NCBI GenBank assembly: GCA_013388755.1
Contig: JACAEQ010000139.1
Location: forward strand, 1 to 49,541
DNA length: 49,541 nucleotides
Reading direction: 5' to 3'
From: Chloroflexota bacterium
GTDB lineage: Bacteria > Chloroflexota > Chloroflexia > Chloroflexales > Roseiflexaceae
Both the position numbers and the translations under genes were made by a program. Below are positions 1 through 13,950 of the stretch, in pieces. Numbering within the stretch: position 1 is the stretch's first letter; each line of letters begins with the position of its first letter. The notes below the pieces were generated by a model. The model was not told where the DNA came from and did no database searches. It was given only the letters and a program-made list of their open reading frames with translations.

Positions 1-1214
1 CAGGCGTGCTCCAGACGCAGGCGCGGGTCGTCGGGGGCGAGAGCGAGGGCGTGCTCGATGGTCGCCAGCGCCTCGGGCAGGCGATCGGCGCGGCGCAGGA
101 TGCCGGCCTTGAGGGCCAGGGCACTGCCATTGTCGGGCAGGAGACGCAGAGCGGTATCAATTGCCGTGAGCGCCTCGTCGTAGCGGCCGAGGTCGTCAAG
201 AAGATCCGCGTGCATGATCAGGAGATCGACATGCTGCGGGTCGTAACCGAGCGCGGTGGCGGTGGCAGTAAGCGCCTCATTGAGCCTTCCGTAGAGGCGC
301 AACGCATAGATCTTGTGAGTGACGGCGAAAACGAGCGTTGGTTCCAGGGTAAGCGCGTGATCGAGATCCGCCAGCGCCTGAGCGTGATCGCCACTTGCCA
401 GGCGCGCAGCGCCAAGGCCGGCCCAGAAGCGTGCATCATACGGCTTCATCGCCAGCACATGCTCGAACTGCTGGATCGCCTCGGCATAGTGTTCGCTCAG
501 GCGGAGCGCCTCGGCATAGTTTGCGAGGTCCTCGTCGCTTTCAGGCAGTAACTCGGTCACCCTGGCAAAGGCGGCGAGCGACTCCTCCAGCTTTCCCGCC
601 TGAACCAGCATGAACGCCGCCTCGCGATAGGCGCCGGCGGCTTCGACAAACCGGTTATGCTGCTCATGCTCAGTGGCAAGCAGTGTCGCAATGCGCGCGA
701 TCTCGGCGGTACTCGCCGTACTGTCGGCGCCTGACTCGGCCGCAAGTCGAAGCATGTCAATGGCTTCGGCATACCGGCCCAGGTGCTCAAGCACGCCGGC
801 GTACTCGCAGAAATCCTGGCCAGACGCAACGTCGCGTGCCATCTCAAAGAGCGTGACGGCATGTTCCAGCATGTCGTGCGCATCTGCGCTCATACCCTGT
901 TCGAGTGCATTGGTGCCAAGTTGTGCGTACGCTCGCGCCTGCAGCAATCGCTTACGCTGCAACAGGGCTGATGGGAGCGTGTCGTCGTCAGGCATGGATC
1001 GTAAGGATTCGATCAGCGACTGGAGGATCGCGTTTGCATTGGTGTGGTCGCCGCTGGCCACCGCGGCGCGCGCCTGATCGAGGCGTGCGTACAGGGTGTG
1101 GAGCTGGTCTTCGACCAGGCGTGGTTGCCCCAGGATTGCACTGCTCACAGGCAGCTCCGTGCCAGGCACGCCGGTTTCGAGCGGCTTCCGAAGCTGGCTA
1201 ACGACGCTGTCCAT
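1..1214 (-). CDS. TPR-repeat protein (partial, C-terminus outside window)
   Basis: An open frame runs from an ATG at 1214 to the window edge without a stop, giving 404 residues of an incomplete protein. After a short N-terminal segment it consists of helical pairs of about 34 residues with the TPR pattern, for example a run around residues 210-245 (ANYAEALRLSEHYAEAIQQF) and LGRYDEALTAIDTALRLLPD later on. TPR arrays bind proteins or peptides; no catalytic motif, signal peptide or membrane segment is visible. The start overlaps the last 17 nt of the upstream pseudo-peptidase gene, so translation is probably coupled and the protein is likely a scaffold for the two peptidase-like proteins. What lies beyond residue 404 is unknown. 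Confidence 0.85.
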   Translation of the reverse strand, partial: MDSVVSQLRKPLETGVPGTELPVSSAILGQPRLVEDQLHTLYARLDQARAAVASGDHTNANAILQSLIESLRSMPDDDTLPSALLQRKRLLQARAYAQLGTNALEQGMSADAHDMLEHAVTLFEMARDVASGQDFCEYAGVLEHLGRYAEAIDMLRLAAESGADSTASTAEIARIATLLATEHEQHNRFVEAAGAYREAAFMLVQAGKLEESLAAFARVTELLPESDEDLANYAEALRLSEHYAEAIQQFEHVLAMKPYDARFWAGLGAARLASGDHAQALADLDHALTLEPTLVFAVTHKIYALRLYGRLNEALTATATALGYDPQHVDLLIMHADLLDDLGRYDEALTAIDTALRLLPDNGSALALKAGILRRADRLPEALATIEHALALAPDDPRLRLEHA

Positions 1215-2790
1215 AGGGCTTCTCTCCTTTCCCCGGATGCTCGCGTTTGTCGAGCAGCGCATCAATTGTCGCGCGCGTCAACTTACTCAACCTGTCAATG
1301 CGATCACGGCGCTCCATTTCCGATCGCCCTTCCGCAACCATCTCACGCCACAGCTCGATGCGCACCCACCACGCTGCGTTCAACACATCGCGCAGGTCGG
1401 CGGTGGCGGGAATGTTCCGGGGGTCAAACGTTGCGGACCGAAACTCGTCCTTGAGCCAGGCGATTTCGCTGCACTGCTGTGAGTTGGGGTACCGCGCTCC
1501 CGGGATCTCCATATGGAGTTTCTGGCCAAAGACTTCGATCAGATGCTGCACATCCGTGAGATTCTCAAGCGCATCGTCAGCGTGCCCACAATGCGTGAGC
1601 ATCTCGTTCCAGTGTTCCTCGATGGTCCGGGTGAATCCCTGTAGTTCGCCACGGTTCTGCTGCACCCAGTGCAATGTGTGGAAGATGACCTGTGCGCGAC
1701 GGATGTCGGAGGGATGATCGAGGGGACTCTGCTGTGACAGATCAGTGCCGGGTGATGCCGGCTCTCCGGCAGATGGCCCTGATTGGCCTGCCGGTACCGT
1801 GATACGCATCGTCTGACCGAGCGGGTCAAAGCGTAACATTACGGCTGCGCACGCATATGCGGGGCCCATACTTGATGCGGCGAAGATATCAGCAAAGTAA
1901 TCCTCGATGTGTCGCCTGTCGATGCCCCGATTCGTCTGCTCCTTCTCGATCAGTATCTCAATGTCTCGCCGGGTGGGGAGCAGATAGGCAAACTCATGCG
2001 CAATGAGCGGTAATGCCCAGATGGTCCATTCCGGAAAACTCAGGCGGATGATTCTGGCGACTGTCTTGGTCAGAGCTTCCTGGTGCGCCGGAATCGTCAG
2101 TGAGTGATGCAGGTCGGTCACCTGTATTGGTTTGAGCAGTTCGTCGCCAATACGACTGATGCCATCATCGAGCTCTGAGTCGCGGAGCGCCAGACCACGC
2201 AACAAATCGACATAATCGCGGAACAGGCTCTGGGTTTGCGGCAGCACCGTTTCGCAAAAAAATCGCCACATCTTACGATTCAGCGCCGCGGTCTCTTCGG
2301 GTGATTGAGCCATTGCTTGCAGATCGCGACGGATGTCGTTGACGCCGTTGCCGACATGTCCCGCCACCTGTTCAATGTTCGCTTTTGCCTGCTGGGCAAG
2401 CTCCACCAGCAGACCTTCGCCACCCTCCGTGACCAGCACGCGGTGCCTGATTCGCTGGTTCAGATGGTCGCCGGCATCAGTAATGATGTCCGACAGATCG
2501 TCGAAAGCTTTCGAAATCTCCTTGAGCTTATCGCGGATTGAATCGAGTCTGGGCTTATAGATTTCGGGCAGTTCGCTGGTATTACGCAGTTCGCGCACCA
2601 TCCGCAAGGCGTCGTTGCAATTATCCCGCAGGGTTGTGTCAATACTGCTCTGCAGGTCCTCAATCAGGCGCTGCCGGATGGTCACCAATCCTTCCAGCCG
2701 TTGCCTGTCGAGCGCCGCAAAGTCTTTGACCTTGTGCTCAAGAATCTCGGTGAGTTCTTGCAGGCGCGTTTCCATGATCAGGTTATTCAT
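1198..2790 (-). CDS. Coiled-coil protein with degenerate gluzincin-like domain (pseudo-peptidase)
   Basis: This 530-residue protein belongs to no family I recognise. Residues 1-160 are charged, heptad-like and probably coiled coil. Residues about 245-450 align with the neighbouring metallopeptidase-like protein: RLSFPEWTIWALPLIAHEFAY here against RLRFPEFTVWSLPFAAHELGH there, then DIFAASSMGPAYAC against DLFATYTLGPAYAC, and LNAAWWVR against VNGAWYWR. The HExxH motif reads HEFAY (265-269), so the second zinc His is Tyr. The Glu at the third-ligand position is Asp (297). It is therefore probably an inactive paralogue with a regulatory or structural role. The ATG at 2790 is preceded by GGGGAG and overlaps the upstream stop as ATGAATAA; a further upstream in-frame start would lie deep inside the previous gene. 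No signal peptide or membrane segment is seen. Confidence 0.82.
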   Translation of the reverse strand: MNNLIMETRLQELTEILEHKVKDFAALDRQRLEGLVTIRQRLIEDLQSSIDTTLRDNCNDALRMVRELRNTSELPEIYKPRLDSIRDKLKEISKAFDDLSDIITDAGDHLNQRIRHRVLVTEGGEGLLVELAQQAKANIEQVAGHVGNGVNDIRRDLQAMAQSPEETAALNRKMWRFFCETVLPQTQSLFRDYVDLLRGLALRDSELDDGISRIGDELLKPIQVTDLHHSLTIPAHQEALTKTVARIIRLSFPEWTIWALPLIAHEFAYLLPTRRDIEILIEKEQTNRGIDRRHIEDYFADIFAASSMGPAYACAAVMLRFDPLGQTMRITVPAGQSGPSAGEPASPGTDLSQQSPLDHPSDIRRAQVIFHTLHWVQQNRGELQGFTRTIEEHWNEMLTHCGHADDALENLTDVQHLIEVFGQKLHMEIPGARYPNSQQCSEIAWLKDEFRSATFDPRNIPATADLRDVLNAAWWVRIELWREMVAEGRSEMERRDRIDRLSKLTRATIDALLDKREHPGKGEKPYGQRR

Positions 2791-4030
2791 CGCTCGCTCC
2801 CCTGTGCGGCCTGGCGAGCACACGGCAGACGCCAAGCGCGGTTGAGTCCACTGTAGCGATCGAGCGGTCCGCGCTCAATGTATCGACAGGAACACGGAGA
2901 TCGCCTTCAAAGAGTCGCCAGTACCAGGCGCCGTTCACAACTTCCGCAAGTGCCGGCGGGCGGTGGTGCCGCCGGGCGAAACGTTCACAGATTTCCTCTG
3001 GTGTGCCGCCGGCCATGAGTTCATCCCGCATGGAGAGGGCGCCAGGCCAGCCGTTAAAGCGTGCTGCACTGAAATGACGCTGGATCGCAGGAAGCATCTG
3101 GGCCAGCCAGCGGTTGATGCGTGCGGCGGCATCGGTGTTGCCGGCAGCAGCGTTGTGCTGCACCAGGCCACCAGCACCCTGGACGCATGCTTCCCAGCAG
3201 GCGCGAAGGTGGTTGATGACCACGGTATAGTTACGACCAGAGTCGAGGAGCTCGAGCACACGCAGCAGCCAGGCGACGCGAAAATCATCGCCTGGATGGG
3301 CATCTGGTGTGACATCGGCAGTATGCGGCGCGGCCTCAAGGACGACCATGCTGCATGCATAGGCCGGACCAAGCGTGTAGGTTGCAAACAGGTCGCAGAA
3401 TAACTCCTCCAGGCGTTGCCGCTGGCGTGGTTCGTCGGTGTCCTGCAGTTGCTCTTCGCATCGCAGGATGTCGGAGAACAGGTAGGGGAAGCGACTGCCG
3501 CGTTCGCGCTTGATGACGTAGTGACCCAGTTCATGAGCGGCAAATGGGAGACTCCAGACGGTAAACTCAGGGAAACGCAACCGGATGATATCGGTGCGAT
3601 AGGCGAAGGAGGGATTCGGTGCAAGAATGGTCAGACGCGGGTACCCAATATCGGCGCGGAGGCTTAGTTCGGCCAGCAGCGCATCGGCAACCTGGCAGAT
3701 ACCGTTGTCGAGGCCGGCGCTTCGAAGGATCGTTCCACCGAGAAAATCGAGACATTCGGCGAAGATGGCTTCGCACTCGCTGCGCGTTGCAGCCAGTCCG
3801 TCCCATGGAATGGCGGCAGGCGACTGCGTGGCGATGCCGAGGCGCAATTCGGCAAGCCTGCGAGTCTGGGCATCCACCAGTTGCTGGAAACATTGCTGTG
3901 CAGCTTCATAGTGCGCGGGATCCGAACGCCGGGCGGCCTCGAGTGCCTGCATGCTGCGTACGAGTGAAGCGTCAAGCGCTGCGAGCTGGGCGAGGAAGAT
4001 CTGCCTTGCGCGCACGGCGTGTTCGTCCAT
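2783..4030 (-). CDS. Putative zinc metallopeptidase (HELGH, gluzincin-like), uncharacterised
   Basis: This 415-residue protein has a helical N-terminal half (1-100). Its core carries HELGH at 166-170 and, about 40 residues later, EELFCD (208-213), which supplies a Glu in an ExxxD context. HExxH plus ExxxD is the zinc-binding pattern of gluzincin metallopeptidases, so proteolysis of a protein or peptide substrate is the likely activity; the substrate is unknown. Conserved blocks LGPAYAC and NGAWYWRL are shared with the downstream paralogue. There is no signal peptide, so it probably acts in the cytoplasm. The ATG at 4030 has AAAGGAG eight bases upstream and is preferred over an in-frame start at 4057. 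It is the first gene of an operon transcribed from an extended -10 promoter near 4204. It could also be a structural protein that retains a metal site. Confidence 0.82.
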   Translation of the reverse strand: MDEHAVRARQIFLAQLAALDASLVRSMQALEAARRSDPAHYEAAQQCFQQLVDAQTRRLAELRLGIATQSPAAIPWDGLAATRSECEAIFAECLDFLGGTILRSAGLDNGICQVADALLAELSLRADIGYPRLTILAPNPSFAYRTDIIRLRFPEFTVWSLPFAAHELGHYVIKRERGSRFPYLFSDILRCEEQLQDTDEPRQRQRLEELFCDLFATYTLGPAYACSMVVLEAAPHTADVTPDAHPGDDFRVAWLLRVLELLDSGRNYTVVINHLRACWEACVQGAGGLVQHNAAAGNTDAAARINRWLAQMLPAIQRHFSAARFNGWPGALSMRDELMAGGTPEEICERFARRHHRPPALAEVVNGAWYWRLFEGDLRVPVDTLSADRSIATVDSTALGVCRVLARPHRGASDE

Positions 4031-8537: not shown

Positions 8538-9286
8538 TGGCGCCAATGGATTCGACAACGATCAAGATATACGGGCCGCTCCGCGATCTCACGCTTCCAC
8601 CGATCTGCCCGGCCTGTGGCGCAGCGGCCAGTGTTCCTCTGCGTATCGAGCGCGTCTTTGCCCGCGAGCGAAGGCGACGGGGTGTGATCAGCACCGCGCC
8701 GCGCGGGATCACAACCTATCATTGCGTTGCGCTTACGGTGCCGTTCTGTCACGCGTGCGCTGCACGGCACATGGCGGAACGGGCCGCGGCTGCTGATACC
8801 CCACCTTCACATCTGCGTTCGACGGCGTTCATGTATGGCGTGGTTGCGGCTGTTGCCATGGCTGGCGCGCTGCTGTTTGGCGCCTTTGTCTGGAACGCGT
8901 ACCCTGGCGGCTGGCGGCCCGCGCTGACGTTTGCTGCCTCCATCGCCGCCGGGTGTGCCGCATTTGCCGGCTGGTTCGCGCACCAGGTCATCAATACGCT
9001 TCGCGCCGGGGCGACGCCACCGCCGACCTCGATTACGGCGGTGTTTGATGTTAGTGACAATCAGGCGGCGCGTTTCGAGCCGGAGTGGCGCGTCTATCGG
9101 TTGCGCAACGCCACGTATGCGCGGGCGTTCGCACAGGCCAACGCGGCGTGGCTATGGGATGAAACCAGCCCGCGCTTTGCACGCGCCGCCAGGTTGCGCC
9201 ACCTCGCCGGCACACTGCGCGTCGCCACCATTGCTGTGCTGCTGGTCGCGTTCATTCTCTTCGCGCTGCGTGCCGGGAGGCCATAG
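8537..9286 (+). CDS. Zinc-ribbon membrane protein, uncharacterised
   Basis: A 249-residue protein of unknown function. Cys pairs CPAC (24-27) and CHAC (71-74) should form one zinc ribbon on the N-terminal cytoplasmic side. They are followed by two membrane helices (about 98-119 and 129-150), a soluble stretch of about 75 residues and a C-terminal helix (about 226-244). It is translationally coupled to the glycosyltransferase (TGATG), which suggests a shared membrane process, but nothing in the sequence gives a reaction. A second in-frame ATG nine bases downstream is also possible. It converges with the ABC gene on the other strand, 31 bp away, with no clear terminator between them. Confidence 0.8.
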   Translation: MAPMDSTTIKIYGPLRDLTLPPICPACGAAASVPLRIERVFARERRRRGVISTAPRGITTYHCVALTVPFCHACAARHMAERAAAADTPPSHLRSTAFMYGVVAAVAMAGALLFGAFVWNAYPGGWRPALTFAASIAAGCAAFAGWFAHQVINTLRAGATPPPTSITAVFDVSDNQAARFEPEWRVYRLRNATYARAFAQANAAWLWDETSPRFARAARLRHLAGTLRVATIAVLLVAFILFALRAGRP

Positions 9287-9317
9287 TCCTCGTTCAGTCG
9301 GGTCGTTCCGATGCCAC

Positions 9318-11099
9318 TTACCCGCCGCCCTCCTCAATATCCCACAGTCGCCGCATCTCGTCACACGAGGCCAGTAATGCTGCGAGCGCGCCAATCGCCG
9401 CTACCTGCCCGTCTCGTAGCACGATGATCTGATCCGCACGCTGCAACACGGCTCTGCGATGTGATACTGCCAGGATGGTCGCCCGGCGATCGTTAGCGAC
9501 GCTGGTTACTCGCTGCCAGAGCGTCGCCTCTGTCTCGACGTCGAGCGCGCTGGAGAGGTCATCAACGACCAGTAGCTCTGGTTTGCGTACAAGCATACGC
9601 GCTGCAGCTGCACGCTGTACCTGTCCTCCCGACAGACGCACGCCGCGAGGCCCGACCAGGGTGTCAAGGCCGTTCTCCAGCACGGCAATGTCTGTATCAA
9701 GCACGGCGGTATGCACGGCTTGAGCCAGCTCTGTACGTTCGAGGAGTGCGCCGAGCGCGATATTCTCGCGTAGTGTGGCTGAGAAGAGCCGCGGAGTCTG
9801 CGCGGTGTACGCAGCGCGTGGCGGTGTCATGAACATCGCCGGGTCATCAACCGGCGCACCATACCAGCGCACCTCGCCCGAGTCGCGCGGCAGCAAGCCA
9901 AGGATCACTCGCAGCAGGGTTGTTTTTCCACTGCCGATGCGCCCGGTAATGACTGTTAGCGACCCGCGCCTGATGCTGAAGCTGATATCCTCAATGCCGC
10001 GACCTGACCCCGGGTGGCGGTAGGTCAGGTTATTGACGGCAAGGAGCTCCGATCCCGTTGCAGCATGCAGACTGCGTACTTCCCGGGGTGCATCGTGCCT
10101 CCTGGCCGGCTGCAGCAACGTTCGTGGCTCGTCCGGCGTCAGCTCCACCAGCCGGGCGATCGAGACCGCCTGCTGATTATAGTCGCCGATGAACGATCCA
10201 ATCAATGACGGGAAGCCGGCGGCATACGCCATGTAGTAGACGAAGAGCGCAAAATCACCCACGCTGAAGGTTCCGGCGCTCATGCGTTGCCCGGCCAGCA
10301 GTAACACCATGCCGACTGCGATTGCGCCAATGATGTCATACAGCGAAAACATGAACTCGTGCAACAGGCGTGCGTGCACCGCCGCCCGGCGCCGCTGATG
10401 ACCCAGATCGCTCAGGCGCAGAATAACATCCTGCACTGATCCGGCGATCTTGACGGCCTGCACCGCGCCGAACAGCTCTCCGAGAAAGCCGATCACCCGG
10501 TCGGATGCGGCCCGGTTCGCCTCCCACGCTGCCAGCAGTCGTGTCCAGCCGGCCCGCACAATGCCGATGACCGCGAACAGTGGCAGTACCACCACCAGCG
10601 TAACGGTCAGGTCAATACGCGCCATGATGATCACGGCGATCAGAAACATGAGCGTCTCGCCGGTGACGTGCGGTATCCAGGTGGGAAAATCACACACCTC
10701 GGCGACGTCGTCGTCGTAGCGGCTGATCGCTTCACCTGACGCAACCGGGGGTGGTAGAGCGCCGGGACGGCGCAACTGCGCCGCCAGCAGGTTGTGGCGC
10801 AGCATGAGCCCGGCTCGCCGCTTGAACGTGATCGCGTTCCAGATATCGGGAAACGATACGGTGAGTTGCGCCAGGCCCACCGAGAGATAGAGTGCGACCA
10901 GCACTGGCACACCGAGTGTCGCCGGCGTCGCTCCAGTGATGGTGTCAAACACGGCTTTCTCGATCAGGCCCAGTGCCGCTGGCGCGATCTGGTACAGAAT
11001 GTGGCAGGCGCTGTGTACATTGAACGATCCAGGGAAGGCGCGGATCAATGCCCGGTTGAGCGACCAGGTTGCCAGCGCCGATGGTTTTGTTGTGGTCAT
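9318..11099 (-). CDS. ABC exporter half-transporter B (degenerate catalytic Glu)
   Basis: A 593-residue fusion of a six-helix type I exporter membrane domain (about 1-320) and an ATPase domain. Walker A is GRIGSGKTT (about residue 383), the signature is intact LSGGQ (about 486), and the H-loop is VSHRR. The Walker B region reads LLVVDDLSSALD: the catalytic Glu is Asp. This fits the non-canonical half of a heterodimeric exporter such as BmrCD or TM287/288, paired with the upstream gene product. There is no C39 peptidase domain. The ATG at 11099 overlaps the upstream stop as ATGA and is preceded by GGAGGG. The substrate is unknown; a peptide, lipid or drug are all possible. Confidence 0.9.
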   Translation of the reverse strand: MTTTKPSALATWSLNRALIRAFPGSFNVHSACHILYQIAPAALGLIEKAVFDTITGATPATLGVPVLVALYLSVGLAQLTVSFPDIWNAITFKRRAGLMLRHNLLAAQLRRPGALPPPVASGEAISRYDDDVAEVCDFPTWIPHVTGETLMFLIAVIIMARIDLTVTLVVVLPLFAVIGIVRAGWTRLLAAWEANRAASDRVIGFLGELFGAVQAVKIAGSVQDVILRLSDLGHQRRRAAVHARLLHEFMFSLYDIIGAIAVGMVLLLAGQRMSAGTFSVGDFALFVYYMAYAAGFPSLIGSFIGDYNQQAVSIARLVELTPDEPRTLLQPARRHDAPREVRSLHAATGSELLAVNNLTYRHPGSGRGIEDISFSIRRGSLTVITGRIGSGKTTLLRVILGLLPRDSGEVRWYGAPVDDPAMFMTPPRAAYTAQTPRLFSATLRENIALGALLERTELAQAVHTAVLDTDIAVLENGLDTLVGPRGVRLSGGQVQRAAAARMLVRKPELLVVDDLSSALDVETEATLWQRVTSVANDRRATILAVSHRRAVLQRADQIIVLRDGQVAAIGALAALLASCDEMRRLWDIEEGGG

Positions 11100-13054
11100 G
11101 CATCCCTCCGCCGTACATGATGCGCCTCAATCAGGCTGTCAGGCATAGGTGCCGTGCCGTTCGTCCAGTGTGGTGCCACAACGCCATCGTTGCCGGCGGA
11201 CACTTCTCGCGGCCCGTCATGCTGAGCCCGGGTCAGCATCTGCTGGTCGTCGCCATTGCTGCCGGGCAGTCCCAGTCCCCGGCGCAGCAAGGCGGCGAAA
11301 CGCGAGGCGGGGTCGGCGGCGAGCCGGGCGCGTGGCCCATACTCTGCCAGGCGCCCGGAGTCAAGAATGGCGATCATATCAGCGCGCTGGACAGTGGCAA
11401 GGCGGTGTGCAACGATGATGCCGGTTCGCCCGGCCAGCAGTCGGTCGATGGCCTGTTCGAGCAGGCGTTCAGTTGCCGGGTCGAGGCGCGACGAGGCTTC
11501 GTCAAGAATGATCAGGCCGGGATTACGCAGAAAGACACGCGCAAACGCCAGCAGTTGCGCCTCGCCAGCCGAGAGCCCGACGGCGCCGACACCCAGCCGC
11601 GTGTCAAGCCCATGCGGCAGGCGTAATGCCCAGTCGCGCAGTCCCAGTTCGCCCAGCGCCCGCTCGATCTCGGCATCGTCAATTCGCCGGCTGAACAGTG
11701 TCAGGTTGTCGCGCAGCGTCGCATTGAATAGCTGCACCTCCTGCGTCACGATGCCCACCCGCGTACGCAGATCGTCGAATGCAAGGTCGCGCAGATCATG
11801 GCCGTTGAGCCGGATGCTGCCTGCCCCTGGATCGTAGAGGCGAAACAGCAGGCGTGTAATCGTGGATTTGCCGCTGCCGGTACGGCCCAGCAGGCCGAGA
11901 ACCGTTCCGGCGTCCAACCGGAATGAGATGTTGTGCAATACCGGGCCGGTTGTGCGTGGCGACGCCTTGCTCGCGATGGCGGACGCACGATCTTCAGCGG
12001 CGTCATCATCATACTCAAACGTTACGTCGTCGAATATCACGTCAAGCGCTCCAGCGGGGAGCGTAGCGATCGGGCGTTCGTGAACGCGCGGGCTGAGCCG
12101 GCGCAGCTCCTCAATGCGTGCGATGCCTGACGCAGCGCGCTGGAGATCTTCGGCCTGCTCACGGATGCGTTCCAGCGGCGGCGCAAGCATGCCAATGTAA
12201 TAGACCACCAGAAACGCGGTGCCGACACTTGCCTGGCCACTGGCGTACAGCCATGCTCCCAGTGCCAGGCCGATGGCGTAGCCGGCGACAAACAGAAACG
12301 TGGTGGCCGCAGATGTGATGTTGCCAGCCATGAGTGCGCCGCGTTCGGCTTCCAGGCCGCGCTGCGACAGCACCGCGTGTTGCTCCAGGATGTGAGCTTC
12401 GGATCCTGAAGCACGGATATCCTCTGCGCCACCGATCCGCTCTTCGATGAAGCCGAATAGCTCGGCGCGTCGTCGTGATACGTCAATCCAGCGCGTGGTC
12501 GCGACACGCTGCAATCCGACCAGCGCGGCGAAGGCGAGCACCGTATAGAGGCTCAACCCCAGGCCGACGCGCCATGCTTCGCGCCACAGCATGGCCAGGA
12601 TGCCGAGCACCAGCAGCGTATTCCCCAGCACTTTAACGGTGAACTGCGAAAAGAAACCTGCCAGTGCACTGCTGTCACCGTCAATGCGTTCAATCAGTTC
12701 GCCGGGAGTGCGCTGCTTGTGGAATCCCATGTCGAGCTGCAGGCAGTGGCGCGCCAGGTCGGCGCGTAGCGCGTTGGTTGCGTTCCAGCCGATATATTCG
12801 CTAAGATAGAGCGCTGCGAACCCGGCGAGGCGCTGGCCAAGCGCCAGGCCGAGAAACAGCGCCCCGACCGCCAGTAACGGTCCATGTTCGATGCCTTGCT
12901 GCGTCGCATCAATGAAGGTGCGCAGCACCTGCGGCGCGGCAAGCTGCAATCCAATGCTGGCAGGGATCAGGATTGCCAGCAGAGCGACACGTGCGCGTTG
13001 TGGCGCAAGATAGGCGATCAGCAAGACGGAGTACTGCCGGATTGCTGTTGTCAT
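11096..13054 (-). CDS. ABC exporter half-transporter A (catalytic Glu present, signature LSAGE)
   Basis: A 652-residue membrane-ATPase fusion. Six membrane helices span about residues 15-310. The ATPase domain has Walker A GRTGSGKST (about 388), a variant signature LSAGE instead of LSGGQ (about 492), Walker B LIILDEASSRLD with the catalytic Glu (about 518), and H-loop VAHRLA. With half-transporter B this predicts one canonical ATP site (A Walker motifs with the B signature) and one degenerate site (B Walker motifs with the A signature), the arrangement known for heterodimeric exporters. The ATG at 13054 sits four bases after AGGAGGT and overlaps the kinase stop as ATGA, so kinase and both transporter halves form one operon. 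Earlier in-frame starts lie inside the kinase gene. Confidence 0.9.
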   Translation of the reverse strand: MTTAIRQYSVLLIAYLAPQRARVALLAILIPASIGLQLAAPQVLRTFIDATQQGIEHGPLLAVGALFLGLALGQRLAGFAALYLSEYIGWNATNALRADLARHCLQLDMGFHKQRTPGELIERIDGDSSALAGFFSQFTVKVLGNTLLVLGILAMLWREAWRVGLGLSLYTVLAFAALVGLQRVATTRWIDVSRRRAELFGFIEERIGGAEDIRASGSEAHILEQHAVLSQRGLEAERGALMAGNITSAATTFLFVAGYAIGLALGAWLYASGQASVGTAFLVVYYIGMLAPPLERIREQAEDLQRAASGIARIEELRRLSPRVHERPIATLPAGALDVIFDDVTFEYDDDAAEDRASAIASKASPRTTGPVLHNISFRLDAGTVLGLLGRTGSGKSTITRLLFRLYDPGAGSIRLNGHDLRDLAFDDLRTRVGIVTQEVQLFNATLRDNLTLFSRRIDDAEIERALGELGLRDWALRLPHGLDTRLGVGAVGLSAGEAQLLAFARVFLRNPGLIILDEASSRLDPATERLLEQAIDRLLAGRTGIIVAHRLATVQRADMIAILDSGRLAEYGPRARLAADPASRFAALLRRGLGLPGSNGDDQQMLTRAQHDGPREVSAGNDGVVAPHWTNGTAPMPDSLIEAHHVRRRDA

Positions 13055-13950
13055 ACGACCTCCTGAAGTGTTGCCGGAAGATCGCCGGTAAGATAGCGGC
13101 TCCACAGATCGGCAGTGATGGCGACGCCATCCGCACGCATGCCGTAGCGCGCGAAGAATGTACACAGCCGGGCGATATCTCGCTCCAGCAGCGTGTACGC
13201 AGCATCGCCATACCGCGGGTCCACCGCCTGCGCCATATCGATCACGGTGACGCGTTCGCCGTCGAACAGGACATTGTAGGGTGAAAGATCGCCATGCACG
13301 ACATGGTGCGCCAGAAACAGAGTCACATTGGCGATTAACCGGTCGAAGAGTCGCGCACCAACTGCCCGGTTCAGGGTAACATCGCACAATCGCGGCGCCG
13401 GGATGCCATCCTCACCTATAAATCCCATCACGATCGTGTTGCCGGTATGGGCATACGGTTGTGGCACATCCGCGCCGGCAGCGAACAGGCGTTCCTGTAC
13501 CTCGTACTCCAGCTTGATCCATGATGCCACACGTACTTCGCGGCCACGTTCACTTGCGCTGGCCGTGAGCCGCCCGCGTACCCGGTTGACCGGATGCCCG
13601 TGCTCATCGAGGCTCAAACGTGTGTTCCGGTAGATGGCATCATTCTTCAGGCTGCGGAACATACGCGGCCGGTACACCTTGGCTGCCAGCATGGCAACAT
13701 CGGCGGCCGGGCCGCCGGTGCAGCAGTAGACAGTCGCCTCTTTGCCGCTACTTGCCTGACCGACGACATCGGCGATCAATCCCTGCGCATGAAACACGCT
13801 GAGTGCTGACAGAACCCAGTCGGAGTCGCGGCGCCCGGCGAGGAACGTTGGTTCGAACATAGTATCGGCAGCCGGGTGCAACGCGCGCTGGTGCTTGAGC
13901 CAGCGCTGCACGTCGCGGCTGCTTTCGTAGCTTTGTTTTCTGGGCTTCAT
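13051..13950 (-). CDS. RIO1-type atypical protein kinase
   Basis: A 299-residue RIO-family kinase. Visible motifs are the P-loop-like SSGKEATVY (68-75), AAKVYR with the ATP-binding Lys (91), the catalytic loop HGDLSPYN (219-226, Asp221) and VIDMAQ with the metal-binding Asp (238). RIO proteins are ATP-dependent kinases or ATPases. Archaeal and eukaryotic members act in ribosome maturation; the role of bacterial ones is poorly known. Here it is translationally coupled (ATGA) to a heterodimeric ABC exporter, which points to modification of the exported molecule or control of the exporter rather than ribosome work. The ATG at 13950 has AGGAT six bases upstream; the frame extends to 13995 without a better start. 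Confidence 0.88.
   Translation of the reverse strand: MKPRKQSYESSRDVQRWLKHQRALHPAADTMFEPTFLAGRRDSDWVLSALSVFHAQGLIADVVGQASSGKEATVYCCTGGPAADVAMLAAKVYRPRMFRSLKNDAIYRNTRLSLDEHGHPVNRVRGRLTASASERGREVRVASWIKLEYEVQERLFAAGADVPQPYAHTGNTIVMGFIGEDGIPAPRLCDVTLNRAVGARLFDRLIANVTLFLAHHVVHGDLSPYNVLFDGERVTVIDMAQAVDPRYGDAAYTLLERDIARLCTFFARYGMRADGVAITADLWSRYLTGDLPATLQEVV

Follow-up and report, generated by a model that had tools for sequence, protein, structure and literature searches.

Organisation of the locus

The window is a stretch of 49,541 nucleotides that forms an entire contig (C96) of a 145-contig Chloroflexota genome (G000). An ORF and sequence check of the window places a metallopeptidase-like gene (A), a degenerate paralogue of it (B) and a TPR gene next to one another, all on the minus strand, and the arrangement given in the initial annotation, with an 8-nt and then a 17-nt overlap, is present:

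2783..4030, minus strand: gene A, 415 aa, metallopeptidase-like with HExxH...ExxxD...HPxxxxR; no signal peptide or membrane helix by hydropathy
1198..2790, minus strand: gene B, 530 aa, degenerate paralogue with a longer helical N-terminus; 8-nt overlap with A
1..1214, minus strand: 5' part of the TPR gene, 404 aa, ending at the contig edge; 17-nt overlap with B (1198-1214)
4208-4200, minus strand: candidate promoter, a perfect extended -10 (TGGTATAAT) about 170 nt upstream of A, good -35 absent

Since the window is the whole contig, the TPR gene is cut by the assembly. The 8 nt common to A and B (ATGAATAA) hold the ATG of B and the TAA of A, and purine-rich Shine-Dalgarno-like sequences precede the genes (AAAGGAGA-like before A and the TPR gene, AGGGGAG before B). 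All proteins of the trio look cytosolic. The earlier claim that one promoter serves the three genes found support in the perfect extended -10 but not in a sigma-70 consensus scan, which, with its own thresholds, reported no minus-strand promoter and did not list TGGTATAAT; a single promoter for A-B-TPR is plausible.

A metallopeptidase-like protein and its degenerate paralogue

Conservation of the catalytic region was assessed in 15 family members, all of them single-copy or A-type:

3521..3535, minus strand: HELGH of A, residues 166-170; H166, E167 and H170 invariant in the 15 members
3392..3406, minus strand: E209-x3-D213 of A, presumed third zinc ligand region; invariant in the 15 members
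3293..3298, minus strand: H245-P246 of A, HPxxxxR motif; P246 and R251 invariant, H245 in at least 90%
1984..1998, minus strand: HEFAY of B, residues 265-269, at the HExxH position; second zinc histidine lost

A combines HExxH with a downstream glutamate as presumed third ligand, as in HExxH zinc metallopeptidases (gluzincin or M48-like), and its sequence marks it as a probable zinc protein-cutting enzyme. No credible family was returned for A or B by the Pfam, NCBIfam and PHROGs scans, and the sole library match of A was PADLOC capP (E 5.6e-6), over 62 aa around HELGH and E..D only. Pfam M78 did not match A, PF01435 matched one family member only and weakly (E 0.02), and for the PmbA/TldD family there was no Pfam or NCBIfam match of A and only unrelated weak matches of B. 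A probably belongs to a metallopeptidase family that the libraries do not yet include. Solved structures, searched with P0001 and with a profile of 15 relatives, gave only coiled-coil and chance matches. AlphaFold models from six sequences were weak (mean pLDDT 67 and 48); with Foldseek and VIA-align these low-confidence models found no fold match, only helical-bundle matches to the N-terminus, and we therefore make no statement on the fold.

Sequence comparison identifies A and B as true paralogues, with 35% identity over 152 aa (E 5e-22 when the two sequences are compared with each other; E 3e-26 for B against the A profile). The equivalent of H170 is lost in all three Bs found in this study (Y, Y and Q in HEFAY, SEYGY and HDLGQ), E209 and H245 are lost in two of the three and the first histidine in one, so that a zinc ligand is missing from every B, the mark of a pseudopeptidase. 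B retains a well-conserved FPEWTIW stretch before the former active site while the active site itself drifts, and is inactive as judged by its sequence. In a tree of the core, the Bs form one clade (support 96/98) and A and B together are supported at 93/91, which argues for one old duplication kept as a pair that has moved as a unit. The A sequences did not resolve as a clade in this tree, and a single A clade was not rejected (p-AU 0.18). In the simplest history, a single duplication would have been followed by a single loss of the second zinc histidine, after which the genes would have been transferred together between phyla. The initial description of a degenerate copy beside an active-looking one therefore holds in all three trios, with B as a single old clade.

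Recurrence of the trio

When 84,980 species genomes were scanned with patterns from the A/B core, two loci emerged, both of them trios with the same gene order. Matches were confirmed by their similarity to A, which means that B and the TPR gene were not directly selected for, although the patterns came from stretches common to A and B.

L028, Microcystis viridis FACHB-1342 (Cyanobacteriota): A at 8758-9975 (HEFGH), B to 11428 (SEYGY), TPR gene at 11448-13199
L029, Burkholderiales MAG (Pseudomonadota): A at 8764-9930 (HEFGH), B at 9945-11330 (HDLGQ), TPR gene from 11327, overlapping the stop of B

The A of each trio keeps HExxH, E..D and HP..R, and B and the TPR gene lie tightly spaced downstream of every A-type gene known here (3/3, in three phyla). 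The repeated co-occurrence of all three genes that the initial annotation had predicted was thus found; homologues occurring singly, which it had set against its claim, were encountered only in the wider family, and then mostly with pAgo or dCTP deaminase partners. Beyond the seed genomes, no A-type gene was detected in 400 Chloroflexota, 339 Cyanobacteriota and 299 and 200 Pseudomonadota genomes, nor in 145 genomes of the window's class. A looser match in the Microcystis family is a dCTP deaminase fusion (L039) rather than a trio, and one further match (L004, genome G091) was a chance match within an aminotransferase gene. No A-type gene was found on plasmids or viral contigs; the plasmids carry pAgo-type relatives only, and the viral contigs no relative of A or B at all. 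The trio is rare and sporadic, and has probably spread horizontally. Neither the trio nor a metallopeptidase of this kind linked to pAgo or dCTP deaminase was described in the literature searched.

Genes next to the trio

The Microcystis and Burkholderiales TPR proteins share a C-terminal part whose conservation goes beyond generic repeats, which allowed the missing 3' half of the window's TPR gene to be located: a C-terminal probe matched the window's genome only once, at the extreme end of contig C15 (E 3.5e-18).

G000:C15:45731-46953 (L041:9732-10952): probable 3' part of the TPR gene; frame open at the contig end, orientation fitting C15 before C96
L041:8284-9726: C25/CHAT-like protease gene, 480 aa, starting 5 nt after the TPR stop

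The ends of C15 and C96 do not overlap, and repeat spacing, counted by hand, indicates that about 13 residues are missing, or about 13 plus whole repeats. The 3' half of the TPR gene probably sits at the end of C15, and the operon probably continues there. The C25-like protein matches Pfam PF01364 (C25) above cut-off, with a weak CHAT match, and its His263/Cys319 dyad is intact and kept in 11-12 homologues from Chloroflexota; its gene is followed by one for a DUF6585 membrane protein.

Different genes adjoin the other two trios. In Burkholderiales, a matrixin-like protease gene (Pfam M10/M12A above cut-off) lies 18 nt upstream of A, while the Microcystis trio has, 62 nt upstream of A, a gene whose helical product carries two membrane helices at its C-terminus. 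Among the products of the operon, none was recognised as a nuclease, toxin or NTPase.

Both kinds of protease partner also occur side by side elsewhere, since in the window's genome (L063:5516-9183) an astacin/matrixin-like gene overlaps the start of a gene for a C25-nitrilase (carbon-nitrogen hydrolase) fusion that directly follows it. C25-like proteases of related Chloroflexota are found in a conserved cluster with a response regulator (L061:4452-9138 and L064:6019-10506); the cluster includes three small proteins of about 110, 145 and 245 aa, and those of 110 and 245 aa were tested and matched no Pfam family.

Single-copy relatives of A

All catalytic residues are kept in the single-copy relatives of A. 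Distant relatives form the last gene of five plasmid operons, from Spirosoma, Emticicia, Runella, an Aphanizomenonaceae cyanobacterium and Rhizobium, which also encode a PD-(D/E)XK-type nuclease, a pAgo-like protein and a protein of 120-145 aa, and in four of the five an HTH or sigma-factor gene. The same pAgo gene set is carried by a Chloroflexota genome (G163, L021).

Six pAgo-type operons: L005:954-6507, L007:1991-8149, L008:2952-8137, L009:3235-8143, L010:2958-8224, L021:7468-13013

Pfam recognised Piwi in the Rhizobium pAgo only; position, length and our reading of the sequences suggest that the remaining pAgo-like proteins are also pAgos. None of the papers searched names the HExxH relative as a pAgo partner. 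The Runella operon is followed directly by multiubiquitin, ThiF and DUF6527 genes (L008:8450-10629).

Other relatives stand with dCTP deaminases, enzymes with known roles in defence against phages or plasmids. One genome of the Microcystis family (L039:6932-8839) encodes, amid transposase-like genes, a 635-aa protein in which the HExxH domain seen in A and its relatives is fused to a C-terminal dCTP deaminase domain. A Chloroflexota locus (L027:1573-6187) holds genes for a ThiF-family protein, a 163-aa protein, an HEAGH relative of A and a dCTP deaminase-like protein, the last overlapping the HEAGH gene by 4 nt. pAgos are likewise known in anti-phage or anti-plasmid defence (PMC2743648, PMC6299218). 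In one Chloroflexota family, an HExxH relative lies in a conserved cluster (L006:8541-14100, L022 and L023) with genes that look receiver-like and ATPase-like by eye and have no Pfam match, and with a small adjoining gene in L006; in L026 the HExxH relative stands alone.

A putative protease switch

It is quite possible that A, B and the TPR protein form the constant core of a rare cytosolic protease switch that has spread horizontally and works with a lineage-variable partner, a reading we favour tentatively because of the conserved linkage, the degeneration pattern and the neighbours, and because of precedents in Canu, pro-nuclease/protease pairs and multi-peptidase conflict systems. A would be an active zinc metallopeptidase; B, its non-catalytic duplicate, would pair with A, present A's substrate, or both; and the TPR protein would act as a sensor or as a scaffold holding the A-B pair. 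On a trigger, A would be released to cut and activate the partner, or would itself be activated by it, the putative partner being C25/caspase-like in the window's genome, matrixin-like in Burkholderiales and a two-helix membrane protein in Microcystis. The outcome would probably be damage-limiting or suicidal proteolysis, as in bacterial conflict systems. The idea of a variable effector draws on three cases, each different and each seen once; two of the genes lie upstream and one downstream. The initial annotation had suggested quality control or a conflict system, with B binding a substrate or regulating A and the TPR protein as adaptor; we infer the setting and these roles likewise.

The C25-like neighbour, the variety of partners and the links of the wider family to defence speak for a conflict system, and the lack of a defence island around the locus, none being present in the window, speaks against it; the lack of mobile copies of the trio and the total of only three trios also count against a defensive role. 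It is conceivable, if somewhat doubtful, that the trio represents a new class of conflict system, in which an undescribed metallopeptidase family (with other branches in Argonaute and dCTP-deaminase operons) forms a metalloprotease/pseudoprotease switch that acts on interchangeable effectors such as a caspase-like protease.

Several known systems resemble the trio in part. In Canu and in nuclease-protease pairs, a protease activates its partner in phage defence (PMC12799240). Canu (CanABC) and the other protease-activated pro-effector systems have TPR genes in some loci, as the trio does, and would share with it a caspase-family protease with a partner and activation by proteolysis; the counterpart of the caspase-family protease would be the C25/CHAT-like gene that follows the TPR gene on C15, across a putative contig junction. 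Unlike Canu, the trio operon has no pro-nuclease (none of the metallo-beta-lactamase type of CanC was found among the neighbours of the C25-like gene, the next gene encoding the DUF6585 protein), its core is a metallopeptidase with a dead twin, and its probable clan-CD protease is C25/CHAT-like. The peptidase conflict systems of multicellular prokaryotes (PMC7159879) are alike in their several peptidase domains, inactive regulatory copies, TPRs and sporadic distribution, but differ in their metallopeptidase family and in the core genes MoxR-vWA, GTPase and NucA-trypsin, none of which could be identified in this operon or the two other trios. The pAgo operons with a Cas4-like PD-(D/E)XK nuclease (PMC2743648, PMC6299218), in the examples found here, end in a distant relative of A with complete catalytic residues, but this relative is single-copy, with no dead twin and no TPR, and is preceded by the 120-145 aa protein.

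The trio could instead be a maturation or quality-control peptidase, in which the TPR protein recruits a dedicated cellular substrate for an active/inactive A-B heterodimer to trim, and the neighbouring proteases are incidental. TldD-TldE is an example of an active/inactive metallopeptidase pair, and there, as in mitochondrial processing peptidase and FtsH-FtsHi, an active enzyme is kept with an inactive paralogue, although these families are unrelated to A and B and the trio has in addition a TPR protein and C25, matrixin or membrane-protein neighbours. Such pairs are an established arrangement (review PMC11266112), and both the cytosolic appearance of the proteins and a chromosomal setting without defence genes would suit this role. 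The extremely sporadic distribution, with the seed genome as the only A-type match in each of the Chloroflexota, Cyanobacteriota and Pseudomonadota samples, makes a housekeeping role less likely, and the co-located C25-like and matrixin-like proteases also speak against it; we regard this explanation as unlikely.

We consider it improbable that A is a regulator of the IrrE/ImmA/CapP type, cleaving a repressor on a damage signal and so switching genes on, with B and the TPR protein tuning it. CapP (of CBASS CapH-CapP; IrrE/ImmA, M78) is a cytosolic regulatory metallopeptidase with local similarity to A around HExxH and E..D, capP gave the only library match of A, and an HTH or sigma-factor gene shares most of the pAgo operons with A relatives; yet that match is confined to the active-site stretch with no full-length M78 match, the trio has no CapH-like repressor or CBASS genes, and no HTH or repressor gene adjoins A in any of the three trios. 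Least probable, with only a slim chance, is that B is an independent substrate-binding protein that merely shares an mRNA with A, as the FPEWTIW stretch conserved before a drifting former active site might suggest, given that A adjoins B in all three phyla and no B without A was found in any genome searched.

The trio is probably a rare, undescribed protease switch. The last-gene position of the wider family in several pAgo operons offers a testable clue to a pAgo-operon component that has no name in the papers searched. If the favoured reading is true, the trio would add a new protease family and a pseudoprotease-gated switch to the regulated-proteolysis or immune devices of bacteria, and would allow the control of an active enzyme by its dead paralogue to be tested directly.
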